Of a DNA stretch of 64,000 nt, positions 9,513-63,335 are shown piece after piece; position 1 is the stretch's first letter; every line of letters begins with the position of its first letter. The notes beneath the pieces were generated by a model. The model made no database searches, was not told the origin of the DNA, and saw only the letters and a list, made by a program, of their open reading frames with translations. The position numbers and the translations under genes were made by a program. The DNA comes from Impatiens glandulifera (Eukaryota > Streptophyta > Magnoliopsida > Ericales > Balsaminaceae): assembly GCF_907164915.1 (NCBI RefSeq), contig NC_061868.1:44763689-44827688 (forward strand), read 5' to 3'.

Positions 9513-11502
9513 TTAATTAATATTAATTGAAGTACTATTGACATCATCATGATCAGTTGGTCGTGTCTTAGCTAGCTCAGTTTCAACGACTAGTTGGTTT
9601 GAAGGATTGGGCTCATTTGACTTATTAGTATTAGTATTATTATTATTATTGTATTTGGTCTCCCCATAAAAGTAGGAAACAAATCCCCAAAGAGACAAAA
9701 CTAGTGAAATTCCTTTCTCCGCCTGAAACTTCTCCTTGTAAAACACCACCGCCAACACCTCCGTCACCGGCAACAGAACCGCTATTAACACCGCCGACAG
9801 CAACGACGATCCCGTAAATATCACTCCAATAGCCCCCAAGAAGAAACACTGCCATATCAATCCGTTGCAAACTAGAACAAAGTAGTACATTCTTTCTCCT
9901 AATTCGTATCCCTTTGCTTCCCTTGGAATTGCCTGCCACGTCATCATATCCATGCACATTTATATTTAATTAAATAAATTAGAAATAATTTAATATTTGA
10001 CTAATTGGTTGGAATGGTTTACTTGTCCATACACTATGGCCGGCTAATATATACTTCAAGGGTTGATGTTAAATATGATGTGGATGTCGATGGTGACTGT
10101 TATATTGTATTTTTATTTTATATTTTAATTTACAAGATTTTTATATGGAAAAAAAGTTAAATTTGGGCTAAATTCTCTTCACGTACATAGTCAAAAACCC
10201 TCTAAGTCACTAAAATTGGCAGTAAAAACAATTTCATTTTTTTTATTATTTTTTTGAAATTTGATATTCAAAACTCTAATTTTATTAAAATTCAATAATT
10301 AAATTATACATTTAATAATTTAACGGTCTGGTATTTGAAACGTATAAATTTAACAATAAAAACTTCAATTCAGAGATCGAATTGAGTCTCAATCAGGAGT
10401 CCCTATTTACAATCCGATCATTAATTTTAAAAAAGAATACAAATATGTTTTTGAACATTTTTAACGGTTCATGACAATACTAAAACCCGTGGACAGCTAG
10501 CAAAGTTACTTCATAGTACATACCGACATAATTATATCAATGACTTGTTTTGATATAATTTGGATTTTTATCCAAATTATATCAAAACACCTTTCGATTT
10601 CATTTAAGATTTTTGTTTATAATCCAGTAAAGACAGTCAACGATCAACAATTTTGGCTATGGATAATAGGGTCCACTCAAGCTAATTAATTATTTATTTC
10701 CATTAGTTATGGGAATTCCGTCCGGTGTGTGTGTTTTACTATGTGAGAGAGAAAGGGAGAAGAACTGATTAATTACCTGAAAGTCGTTATTGATGATCAT
10801 GCCGATTGTGCAGAAAAGGGTAGCGAAGAAGCAAATAACTAACTGCATCTCCAATACCAATGTATAAGTAACCGTTTTCTTCGCCTTCTTATAAGTTAGT
10901 TCAACCAACGGTAATATCAGTCCGTACAGAGCAGACGCGGCGATCGTCATAAAGAATCCCATATAATACTCCATTTTCGTCTCTCCCTTGGGCCGATCGC
11001 TACCGGTTCGCAGCGCCAACACTCCGGCTCCAACCGTCAGCAAAACCACCGCGTTTACGGAAAACGCGGTGAATTTCTGCCGGACAAGGAGAAACGCGAA
11101 GAACGCGGTGAATCCGAGCTGCGACGCGATGATTAGGGAAGATGTGGAGACTGGGAGTTTGGCGACGCCGTAGGCGTATAGATAGTCGTCGGCGCCGGTT
11201 AGGATTCCGATTACGGTGGCGGCGAGGAAGATGCGAGGAGTCATGAGGAAGAGCTTGGCGGTGGAAGCGGCGGATTGGCGGCGGCGGCGGATGAAACTGA
11301 TGAGGAGGGGGAGGAAGATTATGGGCCATCCGGCGGTTTCTAAGGAGGAGGAGAGCCAAACGCGTTTGCCGCCGCGAACGAAGTAGAGACGCATGATTAA
11401 AGGGCCGCCGCATGTGCCGATTGAGAGAAGGACGGCGTTAAGGATCAAGAGAAGTCTCTTTGTTTTATTGTTCATGATTGTTTCATCTTTCTGCTCCTCC
11501 AT
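9513..11502 (-). CDS. Purine permease, PUP1/PUP3-like (copy B)
   Basis: Same family and expected role as copy A: a plasma- or endo-membrane importer of purine bases or derivatives such as cytokinins. Exon 1 is 11502-10777 (242 codons, from [10 protein letters not shown] to NNDFQ). Exon 2 is 9932-9513 ([20 protein letters not shown] to STSININ, then stop). Total 381 aa; the intron is 844 bp with GT-AG borders. Hallmarks [56 protein letters not shown] and [20 protein letters not shown] are all present. The C-terminus has an Asn-rich run encoded by AAT/AAC repeats, then a tail [17 protein letters not shown] shared with copy C. A CT-rich stretch (CTCTCTCTCAC in + orientation) lies just upstream of the start. 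The exon 1 GC content is clearly above that of the surrounding spacer. It is the unit 1 partner of copy C; both frames are intact. Confidence 0.94.
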
Positions 11503-32817: not shown

Positions 32818-33681
32818 TGCTAGGTTTAATACAAGGTATAAGACTGTATATATAGTATTATTGTATATACAATAAATTATAATACTTATTTGATTAGTTA
32901 CAATTTATATATACATTGATATTTAAATATAAGTTATACCTTGAAAAAAGTATAATATAATACTTATTCAAACCAGTTAAAGAAGGTATTAAAATTTTAA
33001 TTTATTTTTAATATTTTTAATCTTATTTTTTTAATATTAACACTAATTTGTTTTATTATTTTTTCATTAAAGTTTAATTATTAAGCTTTTATTATTTTTA
33101 ATTTTAGTTTATATTATTTTTTTTTTAAATAAACTTATTTTATCAATTTTAATATTTAAAATTTAAAATAATTTTTAATTTTATTTGTTTTTACAAAAAA
33201 AGTTAACGTTTATTATTATTAATTACAATTTATTATTAATTCAATCATTTAAAAAATATATATTATTATTCATATTTTAAATAAAATTATGAAATAATAC
33301 TAAATATTTATTTTTATATATTATTATTAATTTAAAATTATAACGTAATTTTATTATTATTTATTTATTTGATATAATATTAGTAATATTTAAAGTAATT
33401 ATAATAAATTTTAAATAATATTAAAATATCAAAAAGGTTAGTTAAAAATAATATTAAAAATATAATTAACAAAGATAAAAAATTATTTTATTTATATGTT
33501 TAAATTTTATAATATCTACCTAACAAAAAAAATTATAAACCTATATAATCTATATATATATAATGATGCTTAATTTTTAAAGTGTCCGGATTGCCGGGTC
33601 GAGAGTTGTGGTTAATTTGGATACTTGGGTCGGATTGTGGGTTGACCCGTTTTTAAATTTAAAACGGTTAAAAATAAAATT

Positions 33682-33755
33682 AAAAATGCTAGAGGTATGT
33701 TTCGAACTTGCAACCTAACAAAACAAGTACAACTCTTTAACCAACTAGGCTACAA
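33682..33755 (-). ncRNA. tRNA-like pol III unit in each Helitron monomer (first example)
   Basis: On the - strand, TAGCCTAGTTGG (33,752-33,741) fits the A-box consensus TRGYNNANNNGG. GTTCGAAAC (33,707-33,699) fits the core of the B box. GCATTTTT (33,689-33,682) is a possible T-run terminator about ten bases after the B box. The spacing of about 33 nt between boxes is normal for a tRNA gene. The same block recurs in almost all monomers. It does not fold into a convincing cloverleaf by eye, so it is best read as a captured tRNA or SINE head; transcription is untested. Confidence 0.45.
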
Positions 33756-36700
33756 AGACTTTACATTTTAAATTCAACACAAAATTTGATAAACGCGGGA
33801 CGTTTTAATATTAATATAAGTTCAACTTTTTAACTAACTAATCTATATATATATAATGATGCTTAATTTTTAAAGTGTCCGGATTGCCGGGTCGAGAGCT
33901 GTGGTTAATTTGGATACTTGGGTCGGATTGTGGGTTGACCCGTTTTTAAATTTAAAACGGTTAAAAATAAAATTAAAAATGCTAGAGGTATGTTTCGAAC
34001 TTACAACCTAACAAAACAAGTACAACTCTTTAACCAACTAGGCTACAAAGACTTTATATTTTAAATTCAACACCAAATTTGATAAACGCGGGACGTTTTA
34101 ATATTAATATAAGTTCAACTTTTTAACTAACTAATCTATATATATATAATGATGCATAATTTTTAAAATGTCCGGATTGCCGGGTCGAGAGCTGTTGTTA
34201 ATTTGGATACTTGGGTCGGATTGTGGGTTGACCCGTTTTTAAATTTAAAACGGTTAAAAATAAAATTAAAAATGCTAGAGGTATGTTTCGAACTTGCAAC
34301 CTAACAAAACAAGTACAACTCTTTAACCAACTAGGCTACAAAGAATTTATATTTTAAATTCAACACCAAATTTGATAAACGCGGGACGTTTTAATATTAA
34401 TATGAGTTCAACTTTTTAACTAACTAATCTATATATATATAATGATGCTTAATTTTTAAAGTGTCCGGATTGCCGGGTCGAGAGCTGTGGTTAATTTGGA
34501 TACTTGGGTCGGATTGTGGGTTGACCCGTTTTTAAATTTAAAACGGTTAAAAATAAAATTAAAAATGCTAGAGGTATGTTTCGAACTTGCAACCTAACAA
34601 AACAAGTACAACTCTTTAACCAACTAGGCTACAAAGACTTTATATTTTAAATTCAACACCAAATTTGATAAACGCGGGACGTTTTAATATTAATATAAGT
34701 TCAACTTTTTAACTAACTAATCTATATATATATGATGATGCTTAATTTTTAAAGTGTCCGGATTGCCGGGTCGAGAGCTGTGGTTAATTTGGATACTTGG
34801 GTCGGATTGTGGGTTGACCCGTTTTTAAATTTAAAACGGTTAAAAATAAAATTAAAAATGCTAGAGGTATGTTTCGAACTTGCAACCTAACAAAACAAGT
34901 ACAACTCTTTAACCAACTAGGCTACAAAGACTTTACATTTTAAATTCAACACCAAATTTATAAACGTCTATATATATATAATGATGCTTAATTTTTAAAG
35001 TGTCCGGATTGCCGGGTCGAGAGCTGTGGTTAATTTGGATACTTGGGTCGGATTGTGGGTTGACCCGTTTTTAAATTTAAAACGGTTAAAAATAAAATTA
35101 AAAATGCTAGAGGTATGTTTCGAACTTACAACCTAACAAAACAAGTACAACTCTTTAACCAACTAGGCTACAAAGACTTTATATTTTAAATTCAACACCA
35201 AATTTGATAAACGCGGGACGTTTTAATATTAATATAAGTTCAACTTTTTAACTAACTAATCTATATATATATAATGATGCTTAATTTTTAAAATGTCCGG
35301 ATTGCCGGGTCGAGAGCTGTTGTTAATTTGGATACTTGGGTCGGATTGTGGGTTGACCCGTTTTTAAATTTAAAACGGTTAAAAATAAAATTAAAAATGC
35401 TAGAGGTATGTTTCGAACTTGCAACCTAACAAAACAAGTACAACTCTTTAACCAACTAGGCTACAAAGAATTTATATTTTAAATTCAACACCAAATTTGA
35501 TAAACGCGGGACGTTTTAATATTAATATGAGTTCAACTTTTTAACTAACTAATCTATATATATATATAATGATGCTTAATTTTTAAAGTGTCCGGATTGC
35601 CGGGTCGAGAGCTGTGGTTAATTTGGATACTTGGGTCGGATTGTGGGTTGACCCGTTTTTAAATTTAAAACGGTTAAAAATAAAATTAAAAATGCTAGAG
35701 GTATGTTTCGAACTTGCAACCTAACAAAACAAGTACAACTCTTTAACCAACTAGGCTACAAAGACTTTATATTTTAAATTCAACACCAAATTTGATAAAC
35801 GCGGGACGTTTTAATATTAATATAAGTTCAACTTTTTAACTAACTAATCTATATATATATGATGATGCTTAATTTTTAAAGTGTCCGGATTGCCGGGTCG
35901 AGAGCTGTGGTTAATTTGGATACTTGGGTCGGATTGTGGGTTGACCCGTTTTTAAATTTAAAACGGTTAAAAATAAAATTAAAATGCTAGAGGTATGTTT
36001 CGAACTTGCAACCTAACAAAACAAGTACAACTCTTTAACCAACTAGGCTACAAAGACTTTACATTTTAAATTCAACACCAAATTTATAAACGCGGGACGT
36101 TTTAATATTAATATAAGTTCAACTTTTTAACTAACTAATCTATATATATATAATGATGCTTAATTTTTAAAGTGTCCGGATTGCCGGGTCGAGAGTTGTG
36201 GTTAATTTGGATACTTGGGTCGGATTGTGGGTTGACCCGTTTTTAAATTTAAAACGGTTAAAAATAAAATTAAAAATGCTAGATGTATGTTTCGAACTTG
36301 CAACCTAACAAAACAAGTACAACTCTTTAACCAACTAGGCTACAAAGACTTTATATTTTAAATTCAACACCAAATTTGATAAACGCGGGACGTTTTAATA
36401 TTAATATAAGTTCAACTTTTTAACTAACTAATCTATATATATATAATGATGCTTAATTTTTAAAGTGTCCGGATTGCCGGGTCGAGAGCTGTGGTTAATT
36501 TGGATACTTGGGTCGGATTGTGGGTTGACCCGTTTTTAAATTTAAAACGGTTAAAAATAAAATTAAAAATGCTAGAGGTATGTTTCGAACTTGTAACCTA
36601 ACAAAACAAGTACAACTCTTTAACCAACTAGGCTACAAAGACTTTATATTTTAAATTCAACACCAAATTTGATAAACGCGGGACGTTTTAATATTAATAT

Positions 36701-39700
36701 AAGTTCAACTTTTTAACTAACTAATCTATATATATAATGATGCTTAATTTTTAAAGTGTCCGGATTGCCGGGTCGAGAGCTGTGGTTAATTTGGATACTT
36801 GGGTCGAATTGTGGGTTGACCCGTTTTTAAATTTAAAACGGTTAAAAATAAAATTAAAAATGCTAGAGGTATATTTCGAACTTGCAACCTAACAAAACAA
36901 GTACAACTCTTTAACCAACTAGGCTACAAAGACTTTACATTTTAAATTCAACACCAAATTTGATAAAGGCGGGACGTTTTAATATTAATATAAGTTCAAC
37001 TTTTTAAATAACTAATCTATATATATATAATGATGCTTAATTTTTAAAATGTCCGGATTGCCGGGTCGAGAGCTGTGGTTAATTTGGATACTTGGGTCGG
37101 ATTGTGGGTTGACCCGTTTTTAAATTTAAAACGGTTAAAAATAAAATTAAAAATGCTAGAGGTATGTTTCGAACTTACAACCTAACAAAACAAGTACAAC
37201 TCTTTAACCAACTAGGCTACAAAGACTTTATATTTTAAATTCAACACCAAATTTGATAAACGCGGGACGTTTTAATATTAATATAAGTTCAACTTTTTAA
37301 CTAACTAATCTATATATATATAATGATGCTTAATTTTTAAAATGTCCGGATTGCCGGGTCGAGAGCTGTTGTTAATTTGGATACTTGGGTCGGATTGTGG
37401 GTTGACCCGTTTTTAAATTTAAAACGGTTAAAAATAAAATTAAAAATGCTAGAGGTATGTTTCGAACTTGCAACCTAACAAAACAAGTACAACTCTTTAA
37501 CCAACTAGGCTACAAAGAATTTATATTTTAAATTCAACACCAAATTTGATAAACGCGGGACGTTTTAATATTAATATGAGTTCAACTTTTTAACTAACTA
37601 ATCTATATATATATAATGATGCTTAATTTTTAAAGTGTCCGGATTGCCGGGTCGAGAGCTGTGGTTAATTTGGATACTTGGGTCGGATTGTGGGTTGACC
37701 CGTTTTTAAATTTAAAACGGTTAAAAATAAAATTAAAAATGCTAGAGGTATGTTTCGAACTTGCAACCTAACAAAACAAGTACAACTCTTTAACCAACTA
37801 GGCTACAAAGACTTTATATTTTAAATTCAACACCAAATTTGATAAACGCGGGACGTTTTAATATTAATATAAGTTCAACTTTTTAACTAACTAATCTATA
37901 TATATATGATGATGCTTAATTTTTAAAGTGTCCGGATTGCCGGGTCGAGAGCTGTGGTTAATTTGGATACTTGGGTCGGATTGTGGGTTGACCCGTTTTT
38001 AAATTTAAAACGGTTAAAAATAAAATTAAAAATGCTAGAGGTATGTTTCGAACTTGCAACCTAACAAAACAAGTACAACTCTTTAACCAACTAGGCTACA
38101 AAGACTTTATATTTTAAATTCAACACATATATATATAATGATGCTTAATTTTTAAAGTGTCCGGATTGCCGGGTCCCGGGTCGAGAGATGTGGTTAATTT
38201 GGATACTTGGGTCGGATTGTGGGTTGACCCGCCTTTAAATTTAAAACGGTTAAAAATAAAATTAAAAATGCTAGAGGTATGTTTCGAACTTACAACCTAA
38301 CAAAACAAGTACAACTCTTTAACCAACTAGGCTACAAAGACTTTATATTTTAAATTCAACACCAAATTTGATAAACGCGGGACGTTTTAATATTAATATA
38401 AGTTCAACTTTTTAACTAACTAATCTATATATATATAATGATGCTTAATTTTTAAAATGTCCGGATTGCCGGGTCGAGAGCTGTTGTTAATTTGGATACT
38501 TGGGTCGGATTGTGGGTTGACCCGTTTTTAAATTTAAAACGGTTAAAAATAAAATTAAAAATGCTAGAGGTATGTTTCGAACTTGCAACCTAACAAAACA
38601 AGTACAACTCTTTAACCAACTAGGCTACAAAGAATTTATATTTTAAATTCAACACCAAATTTGATAAACGCGGGACGTTTTAATATTAATATGAGTTCAA
38701 CTTTTTAACTAACTAATCTATATATATATATAATGATGCTTAATTTTTAAAGTGTCCGGATTGCCGGGTCGAGAGCTGTGGTTAATTTGGATACTTGGGT
38801 CGGATTGTGGGTTGACCCGTTTTTAAATTTAAAACGGTTAAAAATAAAATTAAAAATGCTAGAGGTATGTTTCGAACTTGCAACCTAACAAAACAAGTAC
38901 AACTCTTTAACCAACTAGGCTACAAAGACTTTATATTTTAAATTCAACACCAAATTTGATAAACGCGGGACGTTTTAATATTAATATAAGTTCAACTTTT
39001 TAACTAACTAATCTATATATATGATGATGCTTAATTTTTAAAGTGTCCGGATTGCCGGGTCGAGAGCTGTGGTTAATTTGGATACTTGGGTCGGATTGTG
39101 GGTTGACCCGTTTTTAAATTTAAAACGGTTAAAAATAAAATTAAAAATGCTAGAGGTATGTTTCGAACTTGCAACCTAACAAAACAAGTACAACTCTTTA
39201 ACCAACTAGGCTACAAAGACTTTACATTTTAAATTCAACACCAAATTTATAAACGCGGGACGTTTTAATATTAATATAAGTTCAACTTTTTAACTAACTA
39301 ATCTATATATATATAATGATGCTTAATTTTTAAAGTGTCCGGATTGCCGGGTCGAGAGTTGTGGTTAATTTGGATACTTGGGTCGGATTGTGGGTTGACC
39401 CGTTTTTAAATTTAAAACGGTTAAAAATAAAATTAAAAATGCTAGATGTATGTTTCGAACTTGCAACCTAACAAAACAAGTACAACTCTTTAACCAACTA
39501 GGCTACAAAGACTTTATATTTTAAATTCAACACCAAATTTGATAAACGCGGGACGTTTTAATATTAATATAAGTTCAACTTTTTAACTAACTAATCTATA
39601 TATATATAATGATGCTTAATTTTTAAAGTGTCCGGATTGCCGGGTCGAGAGCTGTGGTTAATTTGGATACTTGGGTCGGATTGTGGGTTGACCCGTTTTT

Positions 39701-40896
39701 AAATTTAAAACGGTTAAAAATAAAATTAAAAATGCTAGAGGTATGTTTCGAACTTGTAACCTAACAAAACAAGTACAACTCTTTAACCAACTAGGCTACA
39801 AAGACTTTATATTTTAAATTCAACACCAAATTTGATAAACGCGGGACGTTTTAATATTAATATAAGTTCAACTTTTTAACTAACTAATCTATATATATAA
39901 TGATGCTTAATTTTTAAAGTGTCCGGATTGCCGGGTCGAGAGCTGTGGTTAATTTGGATACTTGGGTCGAATTGTGGGTTGACCCGTTTTTAAATTTAAA
40001 ACGGTTAAAAATAAAATTAAAAATGCTAGAGGTATATTTCGAACTTGCAACCTAACAAAACAAGTACAACTCTTTAACCAACTAGGCTACAAAGACTTTA
40101 CATTTTAAATTCAACACCAAATTTGATAAAGGCGGGACGTTTTAATATTAATATAAGTTCAACTTTTTAAATAACTAATCTATATATATATAATGATGCT
40201 TAATTTTTAAAATGTCCGGATTGCCGGGTCGAGAGCTGTGGTTAATTTGGATACTTGGGTCGGATTGTGGGTTGACCCGTTTTTAAATTTAAAACGGTTA
40301 AAAATAAAATTAAAAATGCTAGAGGTATGTTTCGAACTTGCAACCTAACAAAGCAAGTACAACTCTTTAACCAACTAGGCTACAAAGACTTTACATTTTA
40401 AATTCAACACCAAATTAGATAAACGCGGGACGTTTTAATATTAATATAAGTTCTACTTTTTAACTAACTAATCTATATATATATAATGATGCTTAATTTT
40501 TAAAGTGTCCGGATTGCCGGGTCGAGAGCTGTGGTTAATTTGGATACTTGGGTCGGATTGTGGGTTGACCCGTTTTTAAATTTAAAACGGGTAAAAATAA
40601 AATTAAAAATGCTAGAGGTATGTTTCGAACTTGCAACCTAACAAAACAAGTACAACTCTTTAACCAACTAGGCTACAAAGACTTTATATTTTAAATTCAA
40701 CACCAAATTTGATAAACGCGGGACGTTTTAATATTAATATAAGTTCAACTTTTTAATTAACTAATATATAATGATGTTGAGTAAATGGATAATTAGGTCG
40801 GATTGTGGGTTGACTCACCCATAAACTTAAAATTATTAAAAATAAAATAAAAAATGTTATCCGTAATTTTTTTTCACGGTTTTTATATTATTATTT

Positions 40897-40922
40897 GTGC
40901 AAATGCACGGGCTAAATGCTAG
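40897..40922 (+). mobile_element. Helitron 3' terminus 1
   Basis: GTGCA AA TGCAC hairpin, then GGGCTAAATG and CTAG. It is followed at once by TATATATAATGATG, the start of the next monomer, giving a tail-to-head junction. The 3' module from about 40,757 is itself a shortened, diverged monomer. Confidence 0.85.
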
Positions 40923-42801
40923 TATATATAATGATGCTTAATTTTTAAAGTGTTCGGATTGCCGGGTCGAGAGCTGTGGTTAATTTGGATACTTGGGTCG
41001 GATTGTGGGTTGACCCGTTTTTAAATTTAAAACGGTTAAAAATAAAATTAAAAATGCTAGAGGTATGTTTCTAACTTGCAACCTAACAAAACAAGTACAA
41101 CTCTTTAACCAACTAGGCTACAAAGACTTTACATTTTAAATTCAACACCAAATTTATAAACGCGGGACGTTTTAATATTAATATAAGTTCAACTTTTTAA
41201 CTAACTAATCTATATATATAATGATGCTTAATTTTTAAAGTGTCCGGATTGCCGGGTCGAGAGTTGTGGTTAATTTGGATACTTGGGTCGGATTGTGGGT
41301 TGACCCGTTTTTAAATTTAAAACGGTTAAAAATAAAATTAAAAATGCTAGATGTATGTTTCGAACTTGCAACCTAACAAAACAAGTACAACTCTTTAACC
41401 AACTAGGCTACAAAGACTTTATATTTTAAATTCAACACCAAATTTGATAAACGCGGGACGTTTTAATATTAATATAAGTTCAACTTTTTAACTAACTAAT
41501 CTATATATATATAATGATGCTTAATTTTTAAATTGTCCGGATTGCCGGGTCGAGAGCTGTGGTTAATTTGGATACTTGGGTCGGATTGTGGGTTGACCCG
41601 TTTTTAAATTTAAAACGGTTAAAAATAAAATTAAAAATGCTAGAGGTATGTTTCGAACTTGTAACCTAACAAAACAAGTACAACTCTTTAACCAACTAGG
41701 CTACAAAGACTTTGTGTTTTAAATTCAACACCAAATTTGATAAACGCGGGACGTTTTAATATTAATATAAGTTCAACTTTTTAACTAACTAATCTATATA
41801 TATAATGATGCTTAATTTTTAAAGTGTCCGGATTGCCGGGTCGAGAGCTGTGGTTAATTTGGATACTTGGGTCGAATTGTGGGTTGACCCGTTTTTAAAT
41901 TTAAAACGGTTAAAAATAAAATTAAAAATGCTAGAGGTATATTTCGAACTTGCAACCTAACAAAACAAGTACAACTCTTTAACCAACTAGGCTACAAAGA
42001 CTTTACATTTTAAATTCAACACCAAATTTGATAAAGGCGGGACGTTTTAATATTAATATAAGTTCAACTTTTTAAATAACTAATCTATATATATATAATG
42101 ATGCTTAATTTTTAAAATGTCCGGATTGCCGGGTCGAGAGCTGTGGTTAATTTGGATACTTGGGTCGGATTGTGGGTTGACCCGTTTTTAAATTTAAAAC
42201 GGTTAAAAATAAAATTAAAAATGCTAGAGGTATGTTTCGAACTTGCAACCTAACAAAGCAAGTACAACTCTTTAACCAACTAGGCTACAAAGACTTTACA
42301 TTTTAAATTCAACACCAAATTAGATAAACGCGGGACGTTTTAATATTAATATAAGTTCTACTTTTTAACTAACTAATCTATATATATATAATGATGCTTA
42401 ATTTTTAAAGTGTCCGGATTGCCGGGTCGAGAGCTGTGGTTAATTTGGATACTTGGGTCGGATTGTGGGTTGACCCGTTTTTAAATTTAAAACGGGTAAA
42501 AATAAAATTAAAAATGCTAGAGGTATGTTTCGAACTTGCAACCTAACAAAACAAGTACAACTCTTTAACCAACTAGGCTACAAAGACTTTATATTTTAAA
42601 TTCAACACCAAATTTGATAAACGCGGGACGTTTTAATATTAATATAAGTTCAACTTTTTAATTAACTAATATATAATGATGTTGAGTAAATGGATAATTA
42701 GGTCGGATTGTGGGTTGACTCACCCATAAACTTAAAATTATTAAAAATAAAATAAAAAATGTTATCCGTAATTTTTTTTCACGGTTTTTATATTATTATT
42801 T

Positions 42802-42827
42802 GTGCAAATGCACGGGCTAAATGCTAG
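42802..42827 (+). mobile_element. Helitron 3' terminus 2
   Basis: Same hairpin and CTAG end as at 40,922. The preceding five monomers plus terminus copy 39,314-40,922 at a spacing of 1,905 bp. Confidence 0.85.
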
Positions 42828-45562
42828 TATATATAATGATGCTTAATTTTTAAAGTGTTCGGATTGCCGGGTCGAGAGCTGTGGTTAATTTGGATACTTG
42901 GGTCGGATTGTGGGTTGACCCGTTTTTAAATTTAAAACGGTTAAAAATAAAATTAAAAATGCTAGAGGTATGTTTCGAACTTGCAACCTAACAACAAGTA
43001 CAACTCTTTAACCAACTAGGCTACAAAGACTTTATATTTTAAATTCAACACCAAATTTGATAAACGCGAGACGTTTTAATATTAATATAAGTTCAACTTT
43101 TTAACTAACTAATCTATATATATATAATGATCCTTAATTTTTAAAGTGTCCGGATTGCCGGGTCGAGAGCTGTGGTTAATTTGGATACTTGGGTCGGATT
43201 GTGGGTTGATCCGTTTTTAAATTTAAAACGGTTTAAAATAAAATTAAAAATGCTAGAAGTATGTTTCGAACTTGCAACCTAACAAAACAAGTACAACTCT
43301 TTAACAAACTAGGCTACAAAGACTTTATATTTTAAATTCAACACCAAATTTGATAAACGCGGGACGTTTTAATATTAATATAAGTTCAACTTTTTAACTA
43401 ACTAATATATATATATATATAATGATGCTTAATTTTTAAAGTGTCCGGATTGCCGGGTCGAGAGCTGTGGTTAATTTGGATACTTGGGTCGGATTGTGGG
43501 TTGACCCGTTTTTAAATTTAAAACGGTTAAAAATAAAATTAAAAATGCTAGAGGTATGTTTCGAACTTGCAACCTAACAAAACAAGTACAACTTTTTAAC
43601 CAACTAGGCTATAAAGACTTTATATTTTAAATTCAACACCAATTTTGATAAACGCGGGACGTTTTAATATTAATATAAGTTCAACTTTTTAACTAACTAA
43701 TATATAATGATCCGGATTGTCGGGTCGAGAGCTGTGGTTAATTTGGATACTTGGGTCAGATTGTGGGTTGACCCGTTTTTAAATTTAAAACGGTTAAAAA
43801 TAAAATTAAAAATGCTAGAGGTATGTTTCGAACTTGCAACCTAACAAAACAAGTACAACTTTTTAACCAACTAGGCTATAAAGATTTTATATTTTTAATT
43901 CAACACCAAATTTGATAAACGCGGGACGTTTTAATATTAATATAAGTTCAACTTTTTAACTAACTAATCTATATATATATAATGATGCTTAATTTTTAAA
44001 GTGTCCGGATTGTCGGGTCGAGAGCTGTGGTTAATTTGGATACTTGGGTCGGATTGTGGGTTGACCCGTTTTTAAATTTAAAACGGTTAAAAATAAAATT
44101 AAAAATGCTAGAGGTATGTTTCGAACTTGCAACCTAACAAAACAAGTACAACTCTTTAACCAACTAGGCTACAAAGACTTTATATTTTAAATTCAACACC
44201 AAATTTGATAAACGCGGGACGTTTTAATATTAATATAAGTTCAACTTTTTAACTAACTAATCTATATATATATAATGATGCTTAATTTTTAAAGTGTCCG
44301 AATTGCCGGGTCGAGAGCTGTGGTTAATTTGGATACTTGGGTCGGATTGTGGGTTGACCCGTTTTTAAATTTAAAACGGTTAAAAATAAAATTAAAAATG
44401 CTAGAGGTATGTTTCGAACTTGTAACCTAACAAAACAAGTACAACTCTTTAACCAACTAGGCTACAAAGACTTTATATTTTAAATTCAACACCAAATTTG
44501 ATAAACGCGGGACGTTTTAATATTAATATAAGTTCAACTTTTTAACTAACTAATCTATATATATAATGATGCTTAATTTTTAAAGTGTCCGGATTGCCGG
44601 GTCGAGAGCTGTGGTTAATTTGGATACTTGGGTCGAATTGTGGGTTGACCCGTTTTTAAATTTAAAACGGTTAAAAATAAAATTAAAAATGCTAGAGGTA
44701 TATTTCGAACTTGCAACCTAACAAAACAAGTACAACTCTTTAACCAACTAGGCTACAAAGACTTTACATTTTAAATTCAACACCAAATTTGATAAAGGCG
44801 GGACGTTTTAATATTAATATAAGTTCAACTTTTTAAATAACTAATCTATATATATATAATGATGCTTAATTTTTAAAATGTCCGGATTGCCGGGTCGAGA
44901 GCTGTGGTTAATTTGGATACTTGGGTCGGATTGTGGGTTGACCCGTTTTTAAATTTAAAACGGTTAAAAATAAAATTAAAAATGCTAGAGGTATGTTTCG
45001 AACTTGCAACCTAACAAAACAAGTACAACTCTTTAACCAACTAGGCTACAAAGACTTTACATTTTAAATTCAACACCAAATTTGATAAACGCGGGACGTT
45101 TTAATATTAATATAAGTTCTACTTTTTAACTAACTAATCTATATATATATAATGATGCTTAATTTTTAAAGTGTCCGGATTGCCGGGTCGAGAGCTGTGG
45201 TTAATTTGGATACTTGGGTCGGATTGTGGGTTGACCCGTTTTTAAATTTAAAACGGTTAAAAATAAAATTAAAAATGCTAGAGGTATGTTTCGAACTTGC
45301 AACCTAATAAAACAAGTACAACTCTTTAACCAACTAGGCTACAAAGACTTTATATTTTAAATTCAACACCAAATTTGATAAACGCGGGACGTTTTAATAT
45401 TAATATAAGTTCAACTTTTTAATTAACTAATATATAATGATGTTGAGTAAATGGATAATTAGGTCGGATTGTGGGTTGACTCACCCATAAACTTAAAATT
45501 ATTAAAAATAAAATAAAAAATGTTATCCGTAATTTTTTTTCACGGTTTTTATATTATTATTT

Positions 45563-45588
45563 GTGCAAATGCACGGGCTAAATGCTAG
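45563..45588 (+). mobile_element. Helitron 3' terminus 3, outer end
   Basis: Same hairpin and CTAG. The next base is T and then unrelated flank begins, so this is the true outer end of the insertion. Confidence 0.85.
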
Positions 45589-45719
45589 TTTATATAATGT
45601 CTTATACTTCCAACCAAACAATAATAGTCTATATAAATTATACTCATTTATATCTCCTTATAATTTATACTTCCTTATAGTTTATATCTAATATGTTGTA
45701 CCTCGTACCAAACGCAGCC

Positions 45720-46657
45720 TTAAAGTAAAAGTCTTATCGAATAACCAAAATTCTAAAAAAGTAATAATTTTAAATACTTTAAATTAAATTGATTAATAAA
45801 TTTTAAAAAAAAAATATTATGGAAGCACTTAAAACTAGAAAATTAAAATAATAATATAAGTCATATCCTAATAACCAAAATTCTAAAGAAGTAATAATTT
45901 TAAACACTTTAAATTAAATTGATTAATAAATTTTAAAAAAAAATATTATGGAAGCACAGTTAAAACTAGAAAATTAAAATAATAATATAATGGATAAAAG
46001 TTTAGTGTTTGATTAAGACTAAGTAATCACTAATCATTATCATTACTATTATAGTGTTTGAATTTATTAAATGAAACTATTACTATAATTTTGGAAGAAA
46101 ATTAGTATTAATATTTTAATTTTATTTTTATTACTATACAATTATTATTTATTATTGTTTATATCATATTTTTTTTTTAAATACAAAATATTCAATTAAA
46201 TCATAATTTAATAAAATAATAAAGATATGACGCGTTTGATTCAGCGTTTAATGTTGCGTAATAATATGCTATAGTAAATTTGCATAATAAGCTAACGCAA
46301 AAATTTATAATTAAACACTTTTAACGTTTAAATTCATTTTTCTCTCTACTTTTCTTTACTGAAAAATAAGCTGTAACGAATAAATTGAATCTATCAAAAA
46401 TATCTATATGAGAATAAGCTTAAACAAATAAGTTGAATAAACTGAAACAAACAGTCTAATAAATTAGAACAAATAAGTTGAATAAACTGAAACAAACCAG
46501 TCTAATAAATTAGAACAAATAAGTTAACTATAATTGAATCAAACTTACCCATAAATACCTCATATCAATTGATTATATTATTTATAATTTTAAAAAAATA
46601 AAAATAAAAGAGTTGGATGATTTAAATTTGTATACTAACTTAATTTCTCAACATATT

Positions 46658-48714: not shown

Positions 48715-51037
48715 GGGTGTGTTTGATAACCCTGGAATTGACATTGAAATTGGAATTGGAGGGTCCAATTTCAATTCTTATGTTTGTTAGACACTTTAAT
48801 ATTAAGAATTAGAATTAGAATTCTAATGGAATTCAATATAATGTAATTTGATAGTTCTCAATTCCTATCTTTTTAGGTCGGAATTGTAATTCCAAATTAA
48901 CACGTTTTTCACATTTTTGACATGTTTAACACGTTTTTCACACATTAAACACGTTTTACACGTTTTTAACACGTTTTTTACACGTTTAATATATTTTCAT
49001 ATTTTGGCACGTTTAACACGTTTTTGGCACGTTTATCACGTTTTTGGTACGCTTAACACGTTTTTGACACATTTAACACGTTTTTCACGTCCTTGACACG
49101 TCTAACACGTTTTTGACACGTTTAACATAATTTTCACGTTTTTAACACGTTTTTGACACGTTTAACATGTTTTGACACATTTAACACGTTTTTCACGTCC
49201 TTGACATGTTTAACACGTTTTTGACACATTTAACACGTTTTTCACGTCTTTGACACGTTTAACATGTTTTGACGCGTTTAACATGATTTTCACGTTTTTA
49301 ACATGTTTAACACGTTTTTGACACGTTTAACATGTTTTTTTTTATATTTTGGCACATTTTGCACGTTTTGGCACGTTTAACAAGTTTTTCACATATTTAA
49401 CATGTTTTTGACGCGTTTAACACATTTTCACGTTTTTGACACATTTAACATGTTTTTTTACGTTTTTGACATGTTTAACGCGTTTTCACGTTTTTGACAC
49501 ATTTAACACGTTTTTTTTACGTTTTTGACATGTTTAACACGTTTTGACACGTTTTACACGTTTAACATGTTTTCACGTTTTTGACACATTTAACTCATTT
49601 TTTTACGTTTTTGACACGTTTACCACATTTTTGACATGTTTAACACGTTTTGGCACGTTTAACAAGTTTTTCACATATTTAACACGTTCTTGACACGTTT
49701 AACACGTTTTTGACACATTTAACACATTTTTTTTTACGTTTTTGACACGTTTAACATGTTTTCACGTTTTTAACACATTTAACACTTTTTTTACGTTTTT
49801 GACACGTTTACCACATTTTTGACACGTTTAACACGTTTTTCACGTTTTGGAATGTTTAACATATTTTTCACGTTTTTGACACGTTTGACACATTTTTAAC
49901 ACATTTAACACGTTTAACACGTTTTGGCATGTTTAACAAAATTTTCACTTATTTGACACATTTAACACATTTTTGATACATTTAACACGTTTTTACGTTT
50001 TTGATAGGTTTAACACGTTTTAAACCTATCAAAACGTGTGAAAAACATGTTAAACATATTAAAAATGTCAAAAACATGTTAAATGTGCCAAAAATGTGAA
50101 AACGTGTGAAAAAACGTGAAAACGTGTGAAAACGTAAAAAATGTGTTAAACGTGTAAAAAACGTGTTAGATGTGTGAAAAACGTGAAAAATGTATTAAAA
50201 CGTGTGAAAAACGTGTAAAAAAACATGAAAGATGTGTGAAAAACGTGAGAAACATGTTAAAACGTGTGAAAAACGTGAAAAACGTGTTAAAACGTGTAAA
50301 AACGTGAAAACGTTTGAAAACGTGAAAAACATGTGAAAAACGTGAAAAACGTGTAAAATGTGAAAAACGTGTTAAAACGTGTGAAAAACGTGAAAACATG
50401 AAAAACGTGAAAACATGAAAAACGTGTGAAAATCGTGAAAAATGTGTGAAAACGTGTGAAAAACGTAAAAAACGTGTTAAAATGTGTGAAAATGTGAAAA
50501 CGTGTTAAAACGTGTGAAAACGTGTAAAAAACGTGAAAACGTTTAAAGCGTGTGAAAACGTGAAAAACGTGTTAAAACGTGTGAAAAACGTGAAAACGTG
50601 AAAAACGTGTGAAAACGTGAAAACATGTGAAAAACGTGAAAAACGTGTGAAAAACGTGAAAAACGTGTGAAAATGTGAAAAAGGTGTTAAAACGTGTGAA
50701 AAACGTGAAAAACGTGTGAAAATGTGAAAAAATATCAAAAACGTATTAAACGTGCCAAAACGTGAAAACATATTTTAAAAGTTAACATTTTGAACCGATA
50801 TTTTATTTTACAAACATTGGAATTAGAATTGAATTACAATTCTATCATTTTTCCAAACATAGGAATTGGAAGTGAATTACAATTCTATCATTTTTCCAAA
50901 CATAGAAATTGAATTACAAATTCTATCATTTTTTCAAACATAGAAATTGAATTGTAATTCAATGTTAATTCTCATGGAATTAGAATTAGAATTCCAATGC
51001 CAATTCCAATTCCAATTCCCCCTCATCAAACACACCC
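48715..51037. mobile_element. PIF/Harbinger-like element with giant palindromic repeat interior
   Basis: Terminal inverted repeats GGGTGTGTTTGAT match exactly at both ends, followed by AATTGGAATTGG-rich subterminal arms. The target duplication is TAA (48,712-48,714 and 51,038-51,040). Unit 1 has the empty site CATTAAGTGAATTT at about 14,248. The interior from about 48,900 to 50,017 is an array of variants of ACACGTTTTTGACACGTTTA. At about 50,017 it switches to the reverse complement (GTGAAAAACGTGTGAAAACG), running to about 50,770. The centre is a near-perfect inverted repeat, TTGATAGGTTT (50,001) and AAACCTATCAA (50,022). No transposase. Transcripts could fold into a long hairpin. Confidence 0.8.
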
Positions 51038-51590
51038 TAAGTGAATTTAAGATTGGTTACTGTAATGTAAATAATTTTAGTTGTGGATCTAGATATTCTA
51101 ATTAGGGTTGGCAACGAGTACCCCTACTTGTCGGGTAGAAGTACCCATCCTCGAACCTGAATTTCATACTAATACTCGACTCCGAATCCGATGAGTATCT
51201 CTATTTGTATTTCATCCCCGATTCGTCGGGTACCCATTACCCGATTAAAATATAAAATTTTATTTTTTTAAATATATTAAATATTAAAAAACAAAAATGA
51301 AATATTACTTAATTTTGCATTGCATAAATGTTGAAAATATAACAATTTTATTGTTATTACTTATTGAAGTTCACTAAAAATGAGAGATAAAGTAGAAAAA
51401 GTTAACCGAGATTAGAGAGAAGTAGAAAGTTAAAAAATTGTTGAAATTGAAAACAAAAATTTTAAAGTGAGAAAACATTTTTCATTTTTTTATAAAAAAG
51501 TGAAGATTAAGAATTATGGGAAAAATAAATTATAATGATGTTGGAGTGGAGTCTGGATATAAGTAATCTAAATAATATATTTAATGTAAA

Positions 51591-52277
51591 CTAACAATTA
51601 TTTCGTGTATTTGCACGAGTAATAATATAAAAAAACCGTGAAAAAATATTATGGTAAAAATGTGACAGCATTTTTATTTTTAACCATTTTAAGTTTAAGG
51701 GCGGGTCAACCCACAATCCGACTCAAGTATCCATTTACTCTCACATTGCAAAACGATCTCTAAAACAATTGATACAGTTTGAATCCTCAACTCATTTAGT
51801 TTCACCTCTAGAGTCCACTTCTTTCCCATATTACGAGTGAAAGGAAAATGTAAGACTACCATTAGAGTAGCCCTGATGAGACTTACTATATTCATATGAA
51901 TTATGTCTCCTATCTATATAAATATGACGAAATTATTTCATTATTGTTCACTAATAATAGTGAAATCTATAGCGTAGATTCAAAATAGAATTATGGCCGT
52001 TTAAAAACTATTGATCAACTACCGCGTTTATCAAATTTGGTGTTGAATTTAAAATATAAAGTGTTATTAGTCTAGTTGGTTAAATGGTTGTACTTGTTTT
52101 GTTATGTTGCAAATTCGAACTATACATATATCATTTTTAATTTTATTTTTAACCGTTTTAAGTTTATGGGTGGGTCAACCCACAATCTGACCCAAATATC
52201 AATTTATTATCACATATATATCCAAATTAAACATAATTCTTGACCCGACAATCCAGACACTTTAAAAATTAAGCATC

Positions 52278-52308
<31 letters not shown>

Positions 52309-60325: not shown

Positions 60326-60969
60326 CAGGGACGGAGCCACCCATGGGCTAGGGTGGGCTCCAGCTCCACCTAAATTAAAATCCTAAAAGAAAACATGTCA
60401 GGTGATTAAGTTATTAAAATGTGAATACGAGGTCAGGTGATCAAACCCTGGCCTCACCTTTAACATATTTTATTTTAAAATTATATTTATATAATAATTA
60501 TACATTATTTTTTATTTATTTCAATATAATTAATAATACAAATCTATGTATATATCTAATAACGCTTAATTTAAAATGTTGGAGGTGTATCACACGCTCT
60601 CTCCACAATCATTAAGAAATAAAATAAGGTAATTTCTCTTTCCTAATAATTATTTATCTTAATTATTTTCTCTCTCCAAATAATTATATATATATATAAA
60701 TTTCTTTCCTAATATATATATTTCTCTCCCTTAATTTAATTATTAAGTATTTTTTACTTTTCTTACCATATAAATATTTATATTTTTTTGCATTAATAAT
60801 ATAAAATATTTTTTATCAATAATTTTATATTAAAATATATAATATTACATAACATATTTATTTTTATATTTAATAATTACAAAATATATATATATATAAT
60901 AATATTTAAATCAACATGCACACCATTAATCTACGTTATTAATATATAATTCATATCATCAAATATTTG

Positions 60970-61048
60970 CTCTCTCCTCTCTCCTCTCTCCTCTCTCCTC
61001 TCTCCTCTCTCCTCTCTCCTCTCTCCTCTCTCCTCTCTCCTCTCTCCT
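60970..61048. repeat. CTCTCCT microsatellite
   Basis: About eleven copies of a 7-bp unit CTCTCCT. The matching site in the second duplicate (about 61,473-61,488) has only about two copies, so this expanded locally. Confidence 0.95.
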
Positions 61049-61108
61049 TCTCTTTATTTCATAATTTCTCTTTCCTAATAATTATTTATCTTAATTATTT
61101 TCTCTTTC

Positions 61109-61111
<3 letters not shown>

Positions 61112-61186
<75 letters not shown>
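61112..61186. repeat. TA microsatellite
   Basis: About 37 TA units; a second run at 61,201-61,230 follows after AAAGTTTCTTTTTAA. Confidence 0.95.
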
Positions 61187-61190
<4 letters not shown>

Positions 61191-61194
61191 TTTC

Positions 61195-61232
<38 letters not shown>

Positions 61233-61741
61233 CTCTCCCTTAATTTAGTTATTATGTATTTTTTACTGTCTTTTACCATATAAATATTTATATTTTTTTT
61301 AGACTAATAATATAAAATATTTTTTTTATCAATAATGTTATATTAAAATATATGATATTACATAACATATTTATTTTTATATTTAATAATAACAATCTAT
61401 ATATATAATAATGTTTAAAGTCAACAAGCACCACCTTAATCCATATATAATTCATATCATCAAATATTTTTTCTCTCCTCTCTCCTCTTTTTTATTTCTT
61501 AATTAAATTTTGTTTTTTCCATTATTATATATATTATATATAATATACATTTCATTATCATATATTATCAAAAACATTATTTATATTATTATTAATTCAA
61601 GATATAAACAAAAAAAAAAAAATTGGTTATAAATGAATCTAACTTCATAATTTTTATATTTATTTTATTTATATATAAATATAAACATTTTTTTTTAATT
61701 TTTATAAATGCACCTACATTCATAATTTTATATTTATTGGT

Positions 61742-61746
<5 letters not shown>

Positions 61747-61819
<73 letters not shown>
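61747..61819. repeat. TA microsatellite
   Basis: About 36 TA units within the Helitron interior. Confidence 0.95.
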
Positions 61820-61822
<3 letters not shown>

Positions 61823-62035
61823 TTTTAATCATTAATTTTATATAAATACATTTTATCTTTTATCATACATTTTTTCACTCATTATATATATATATATATA
61901 TATATAATATTTTTTTATGAGTATAAATAATTTTTATGTTAATATAAAAATTAACTAATTGATAATAAATATTAAATATAAAATATATATGCATACACAA
62001 AATAATAAAATTATTTCAACAATCATAAGTGGTCT

Positions 62036-62095
62036 AGCGGTTTAAGTGTACACATTTCATGCGGAAGACCAGGGTTCGAATCCCAATACATGCAA
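62036..62095 (+). ncRNA. tRNA-like sequence with A and B boxes
   Basis: TGGTCTAGCGGTTTAAG fits an A box, and GGGTTCGAATCCC about 40 nt later is a perfect T-arm/B box. A CAT triplet lies where an anticodon might be, but the anticodon stem does not pair well by eye. It sits inside the Helitron, so a captured tRNA or SINE head is more likely than a working tRNA gene. Confidence 0.45.
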
Positions 62096-62139
62096 AATTT
62101 TAAACAAATCATAGGCATCTGAAAGTGTGATGTTGGAAT

Positions 62140-62830
62140 TAGTGGTTGATTTGACGAGCATTTAAATGTCTGAGTTCACGAGATGGAGGTTAGGTGGTTG
62201 GTATGACGAGCATTTGAAATTGTGAGGTCACGAGATGAAGGTCGGGTAGTGGGTGCTTTGTCGAGTGTGACGTCGGAATTAGTGGTTGGTTTGATGAACA
62301 TTTGATAGTTTGAGGTCACGAGATGGAGGACGGGTGGTGGGTAGTTTGTCGAGTGTGAGGTTTGAATTAATGGTTGGTATGACGAGCATTTGAAATTGTG
62401 AGGTCACGAGATGGAGGTCGGGTGATGGGTGGTTTGTCGAGTGTGACGTCAGAATTAGTGGTTGGTTTGACGAGCATTTGAAAGTGTGAGGTCACGAGAT
62501 GAATGTCGGATGGTGGTTAATGGTTGGTTGGTTTGACGTTGGATAAGAGTTTGTGATCAATTTGAGGATTTGGTTGTTGAATTGTTGAAGTGAGAGTAAA
62601 AGAGAGGCTGACTAAGATTGGTGAGTGGTTTATTGAGGTATAGAGGCATATGAAAAAGTGTGAGTCACAAAATGATGGTCAATTGGAGGGTTATTGGTTG
62701 AGTTTGACGAGCATTTGAAAGTGTGAGGTCACAAGATAAAGGTCGGGTGATGGGTGGTTTGTCGAGTGTGAGGTTGAAATTAATGGTTGGTTTGACGAGT
62801 ATTTGAAAGTGTGAGGTCACGAGATGAATG
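62140..62830. repeat. 88-bp minisatellite
   Basis: TCACGAGATG recurs at 62,228, 62,316, 62,404 and 62,492, and TCAC(A/G)AGAT at 62,729 and 62,817, each step 88 bp. Each unit includes GACGAGCATTTGAAAGTGTG, GGTCGGGTGGTGGGTGG and TTTGTCGAGTGTGA. A longer segment (62,497-62,710) recurs, diverged, at 62,822-63,080, a spacing of about 325 bp. Confidence 0.85.
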
Positions 62831-63335
62831 TTGGATAGTGGTTGGTTTGATGTTGGATAAGAAGTCTGTGATCAATTGGGGGATTGGTTGTTGATTTGTT
62901 AAAGTGGAAATAAAAAAAGGTTGAATAAGATTGGTGAGTGGTTTGTCGAGAGATGGAGTCATATGAAAAGTGTGAGTCATAATTAAGGTCGACTAAGATT
63001 GATGAGTGATTTGCCGAAGGGATAAAAATTGCATATAAAAAAATATGAGTCACAAGATGAGGGTCAATTGAGCGGTTAAGTGAGTGCCGAAGGGATATAA
63101 TATAAGTTAATATTAAGTTTAAAATAAAACTTAATTTATCTAAAATATTTATAAATAAATAATATTTTATATATATTTTCATCCGTGCAAATGCACGGGA
63201 TTCATGCTAGTTATTTATAAGGGTAAAATATAAAAATTAAAATAATAATAATAGTGTTTTATATTTCTTAATTTTAAACTATTTCAAAAATTTATAAGAA
63301 AATATAAATTAATGTTAATAAACAAGTTAAAATAA

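Follow-up and report, generated by a model that had tools for sequence, protein, structure and literature searches.

A tandem array of Helitron 5' regions with three identical 3' ends in Impatiens glandulifera

A tandem array composed of 40 copies of a Helitron 5' region and interrupted or closed by three complete Helitron 3' ends occupies positions 33549–45588 of the window, i.e. the whole 64,000-nucleotide stretch of Impatiens glandulifera DNA analyzed here. The array is a real structure, and its terminal sequences point to the non-autonomous canonical Helitrons as the right family. A BLAST search of the window with one monomer located all 40 units within 33549–45430, while TRF reported a repeat of about 293 bp extending from about 33546 to 45436, with scores up to 6120 against a threshold of 50, so chance is no explanation for the array. 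The 40 monomers of about 293 bp counted in an earlier, sequence-only reading were thus found again: 24 are exactly 293 bp long, the remaining 16 range from 232 to 297 bp, and on average the monomers diverge from their consensus by 1.1%. The same reading assigned a single start sequence to every monomer, which does not hold as a universal rule, as the proposed 20-mer is exact in 23 of 40 monomers; TC is nonetheless the start of 35 of the 40, with A as the preceding base in 34 of these 35.

All parts of the array lie on the plus strand. Block A (33549–40764) consists of m01–m25, tandem 5' regions of about 293 bp each (the tails of m05 and m16 are truncated), and is followed by the first 3' module (40765–40922), which starts with TATATAATGATGTTGAG and carries the palindrome and CTAG at its end. 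Block B (40923–42669) comprises m26–m31, of which m26 lacks its first six bases and resembles a chimera, its 5' part being similar to m32 and its 3' part to m20; together with the second, identical 3' module (42670–42827) it makes up a single unit of 1905 bp (40923–42827). Block C (42828–45430) comprises m32–m40, among which m32 also lacks the first six bases, m36–m40 are close to m21–m25, and m33–m36 are without a close partner. The third 3' module (45431–45588), identical to the other two, ends at the right border of the array, CTAG^T (the caret marks a junction).

Canonical Helitrons begin with TC and end with CTRR; here, TC is present at the left border and CTAG at the end of all three 3' modules. 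These modules, located by BLAST with a 3' piece, are 158 bp long and identical throughout, and they end precisely where complete 3' ends had been placed (40,922, 42,827 and 45,588). Each of the three contains GTGCAAATGCAC, then ten bases, then CTAG, the terminal sequence being GTGCAAATGCACGGGCTAAATGCTAG. The outer borders, ATAA^TCTATA on the left and GCTAG^TTTATA on the right, reduce to A^TC and CTAG^T, so that the element, as read from the occupied site, sits between an A and a T and has not duplicated its target. Thus, the earlier statement that the outer borders obey the A/T insertion rule is upheld, and the TC starts of the monomers, together with CTAG in three of three modules, bear out the combination of Helitron-type termini with a 5' end that serves as the monomer of a satellite.

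Canonical Helitrons also have a stable hairpin close to the 3' end. In the 3' end of the array, the GTGCA/TGCAC palindrome ends 10 nt upstream of CTAG. Folded as single-stranded DNA, this end reaches -3.2 kcal/mol and is equalled by 71 of 200 shuffles, compared with -6.5 kcal/mol (3 of 200) for the 3' end of a neighbouring Helitron (63167–63210) and -5.6 kcal/mol (15 of 200) for that of a degenerate relative in the same window. The one monomer tail tried folds at -0.6 kcal/mol, with 154 of 200 shuffles equally good, so no terminator of its own is evident in the monomer tail. The hairpin of Helraiser, a Helitron from bats, is called a transposition terminator in the relevant passage of PMC5876387, according to which its deletion lowers the efficiency of transposition. 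Since the Helraiser hairpin acts in this way, the weak terminator hairpin of the array could have favoured aberrant copying, or it could be a mere mark of decay.

Block duplication is demonstrated within the array, while crossing-over is read from a single chimeric monomer; growth of the array after its first amplification, which had been suggested earlier, is thereby substantiated as block duplications plus a probable crossover chimera. With gaps left out, m02–m12 differ from m13–m23 (lag 11) by 7 substitutions in 3155 sites (0.2% divergence) and m20–m25 from m26–m31 (lag 6) by 7 substitutions in 1747 sites (0.4%), and at both lags the multi-monomer blocks are more alike than adjoining monomers, a pattern typical of higher-order satellites. 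An exact repeat of 1260 bp at an offset of 1905 spans several monomers as well as one of the 3' modules and one inner junction, and another one, of 1196 bp at an offset of 3163, spans several monomers. None of 2000 shuffles of the monomer order contained a pair of 5-monomer blocks as close as the observed one (0.0007 vs 0.0034 for the lowest shuffled value). Block C does not simply repeat the last part of block A, since m33–m36 have no close partner (best value 0.022 substitutions per site, median 0.027); a direct copy is seen for m36–m40 only, which are 0.55% apart from m21–m25. If plants accumulate about 7e-9 substitutions per site and year, and with gene conversion ignored, the age of the array would be, very roughly, near 1–2 million years and that of the block duplications near 0.1–0.3 million years.

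Both inner junctions read CTAG^TATATATAATGATG (also written CTAG^TATATATAATG). The inner 3' ends are indeed joined to the next 5' region, as the sequence-only reading had it, but that region is short of its first six bases (TCTATA). Neither of the two inner 3' ends exhibits a CTAG^TC junction, and TCTATA^TC is absent from the listed junctions. The two junctions appear to trace back to one, because m26 looks like a crossover product of m32 and m20. Like m32, it starts short and carries T at alignment column 39; like m20 and m09, it has C at position 224 and the deletion at 248. It is free of the two-base deletion at 180–181 and of the A at 258 that are found in m32, and carries one private substitution, at 164. 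A crossover between m32 and m20, yielding the 1905-bp block B, is probable, judged from these few sites. In the simplest reading, only one primary junction, where block A meets block C, then calls for an explanation.

The origin that we somewhat favour, at slightly better than even chances, is that truncated 5' ends, already arrayed in tandem, inserted into the TA-rich start of a sibling element and that unequal crossing-over followed. According to this scenario, both the middle and the 3' part of a non-autonomous canonical Helitron would have gone missing from a template, and the remaining 5' unit of 293 bp would have multiplied into a tandem array with one terminal 3' end. This first amplification may have proceeded by rolling-circle copying of a circle devoid of the 3' terminator, or by nesting and subsequent crossing-over. 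The resulting element with many 5' ends (block A) would have inserted between A and T within the TA-rich 5' start of its sibling (block C), and unequal homologous crossing-over would have produced both block B and the 11-monomer duplication within block A. An A^T insertion into the TA run with which block C begins yields exactly the sequence of the inner junction, i.e. CTAG^T and then the rest of the TA-run 5' end. The left flank of the whole array, CCTATATAA (33540–33548, plus strand), hints at a remnant of the 5' end of an outer Helitron and may represent the start of the element that was interrupted. Outside the array, the window has 6663 A^T sites, and CTATATA, a motif picked post hoc, lies within the 10 nt preceding 21 of them. 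Against the nested insertion, whose left half is thus hinted at and no more, speak the absence of TCTATA^TC from the listed junctions, the non-discriminating alignment score of the joined flanks (3505 of the 6663 control A^T flanks score as high), and the outer right flank, TTTATATAATG, which, when joined to the left one, also resembles a 5' start. In a further reading, which we consider doubtful, the whole array with many 5' ends is itself mobile: a Helitron with a decayed terminator hairpin would amplify its 5' end during transposition and insert into the TA-rich starts of its own siblings, and arrays would grow through repeated self-targeting and then crossing-over.

The main rival to nested insertion is a tandem duplication mediated by microhomology, which would have joined the right flank TTTATATAATG to the monomer start TATATAATG and thus generated the inner 3' ends, with unequal crossing-over afterwards and with transposition limited to the first insertion. 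The nine bases TATATAATG are common to the right flank and the monomer starts, so such a duplication could yield a nearly identical inner junction, and duplication of blocks has occurred in the array anyway. The expected product is, however, CTAGTTTATATAATGATG, while both inner junctions read CTAGTATATATAATGATG, which is one base off (T predicted vs A found), and m32–m35 are not near-copies of m17–m20. We regard this explanation as possible, with a chance of roughly one half of that given to the nested insertion.

The sequence-only reading ascribed the inner 3' ends to rolling-circle replication that fails to stop, which would run past the 3' terminator and leave concatemers with several complete 3' ends. 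The array's hairpin, which by both energy and shuffles is weaker than the hairpin of the Helitron nearby (see above), speaks for this mechanism, yet it predicts CTAG^TC, which is seen at neither inner junction, and the two junctions appear to be of common descent. Therefore read-through of the 3' end is disfavoured, and we rejected the read-through concatemer as an unlikely source of these ends. Tandem arrays are also prone to assembly errors, and the length or the order of the array could in principle stem from a misassembled shorter repeat; but many monomers carry private substitutions, the deletions in m05, m16 and m35 differ from one another, the blocks are arranged in a clear pattern, and the window of 64,000 nucleotides is without a single N, all of which makes an artefact very improbable.

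The window contains two relatives. The degenerate one (51584–52298, minus strand) exhibits the un-arrayed layout, i.e. a single 5' unit (277 positions at 79% identity), a middle of 282 bp, which has no other match within the window, and a 3' part (79% over 157 positions). The second Helitron (61396–63210, plus strand) has similar ends, A^TCTATATATATAATAATG ... GTGCAAATGCAC..CTAG^T; 23 bp at its start match five monomer starts at 91% and 39 bp at its end match the three 3' modules of the array at 82%. Its 5' end (from 61396) is repeated about 509 bp upstream, with 82% identity over 100 positions (region 60741–61520), and inspection by eye indicates that about 130 bp of its upstream flank are repeated too; the region has the appearance of a simple tandem duplication that took in the flank together with the 5' end. 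A minisatellite with units of 44/88 bp is internal to this Helitron (62142–62979). As to the array itself, its 3' module has 74 bp in common with monomer positions 70–143 (81% identity with that monomer) and begins with a shortened TATATAATGATG, thus the last unit of the array looks like an internally deleted Helitron. Elsewhere in the window, two long minisatellites, inverted relative to each other and matching at 75% over 771 positions, form a foldback-like structure of about 1.9 kb (48897–50768). The list of ORFs of 110 aa and more, inspected by eye, includes purine permease-like ORFs, apparently from three gene copies (3814–30538); their likeness was judged by eye except for the ORF at 10690–11502 (minus strand), 90% of which aligns at 100% identity with a protein named for Impatiens glandulifera.

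A tRNA-like stretch is present in the monomers (33549–45430) on the minus strand, with TAGCCTAGTTGG, which we take to be the A-box, and AGTTCGAAACA, presumably a B-box-like motif. As 70 of 200 shuffles fold equally well, we treated this stretch as a captured or decayed piece. The monomer as an RNA gene was considered and rejected: a search of 33400–46000 against Rfam gave no hit up to E = 1, ARAGORN identified no tRNA in the window, and the fold is no better than that of shuffled sequences. In a comparison made for one monomer, the 23 bp that end one base before the next TC match the tRNA-like stretch at 20 of 23 positions, and none of 1000 single-base shuffles was as good; it is as if the original insertion site had been another tRNA-like copy.

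Arrays of truncated Helitrons have been reported from plants by Xiong, Dooner and Du (Xiong et al. 2016, Plant J), who found numerous arrays in 27 plant genomes, as summarised in a passage of the review PMC12628747; according to the same passage many of them combine multiple 5' ends with just one 3' end, and the arrays comprise several to several hundred repeats and are ascribed to a circular template that had lost the 3' terminator. They are also cited in passages of PMC5148889 and PMC5876387. The present array agrees with that description in its truncated monomers, in its many 5' ends with one 3' end and in the number of units, block A alone (25 5' units and one 3' module) having the complete layout; it differs in having three 3' ends, which we ascribe to further insertion, or to duplication, plus unequal exchange. 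It shares its window with the purine permease-like ORFs. The claim that such an array is unusual is therefore a weak one, given the plant arrays of up to several hundred repeats summarised in PMC12628747. FoHelis of Fusarium oxysporum, as portrayed in the excerpted part of PMC5148889, similarly have multiple 5' termini per 3' terminus, attributed to self-insertion; in contrast to the present array, they are Helitron2-like elements whose duplicated 5' pieces are few and short (31–85 bp in the examples, typically below 200 bp). Maize Helitrons acquire multiple termini through nested insertions (PMC3288121, in the portion consulted), and resemble the array in having several termini by nesting; the example has three 3' termini, and the main text of that article nowhere uses the word 'tandem'. 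Titles and the starts of abstracts revealed no work on this plant that links Impatiens and Helitron, and no Helitron literature with tRNA-like, SINE or tandem that deals with such a structure; no nuclear genome paper for Impatiens glandulifera was recognized by title among the matches listed.

Thus, the array fits those already reported in other plants and adds an example from Impatiens. What it adds beyond that is an order of events that can be read, and 3' ends that can be accounted for without read-through. It offers a legible example of how a transposon end becomes a satellite, in which monomer-specific substitutions reveal much of the sequence of events, i.e. amplification, gain of a second 3' end and crossover, and it shows that the recurrence of 3' ends in an array of this kind does not necessarily imply rolling-circle read-through.
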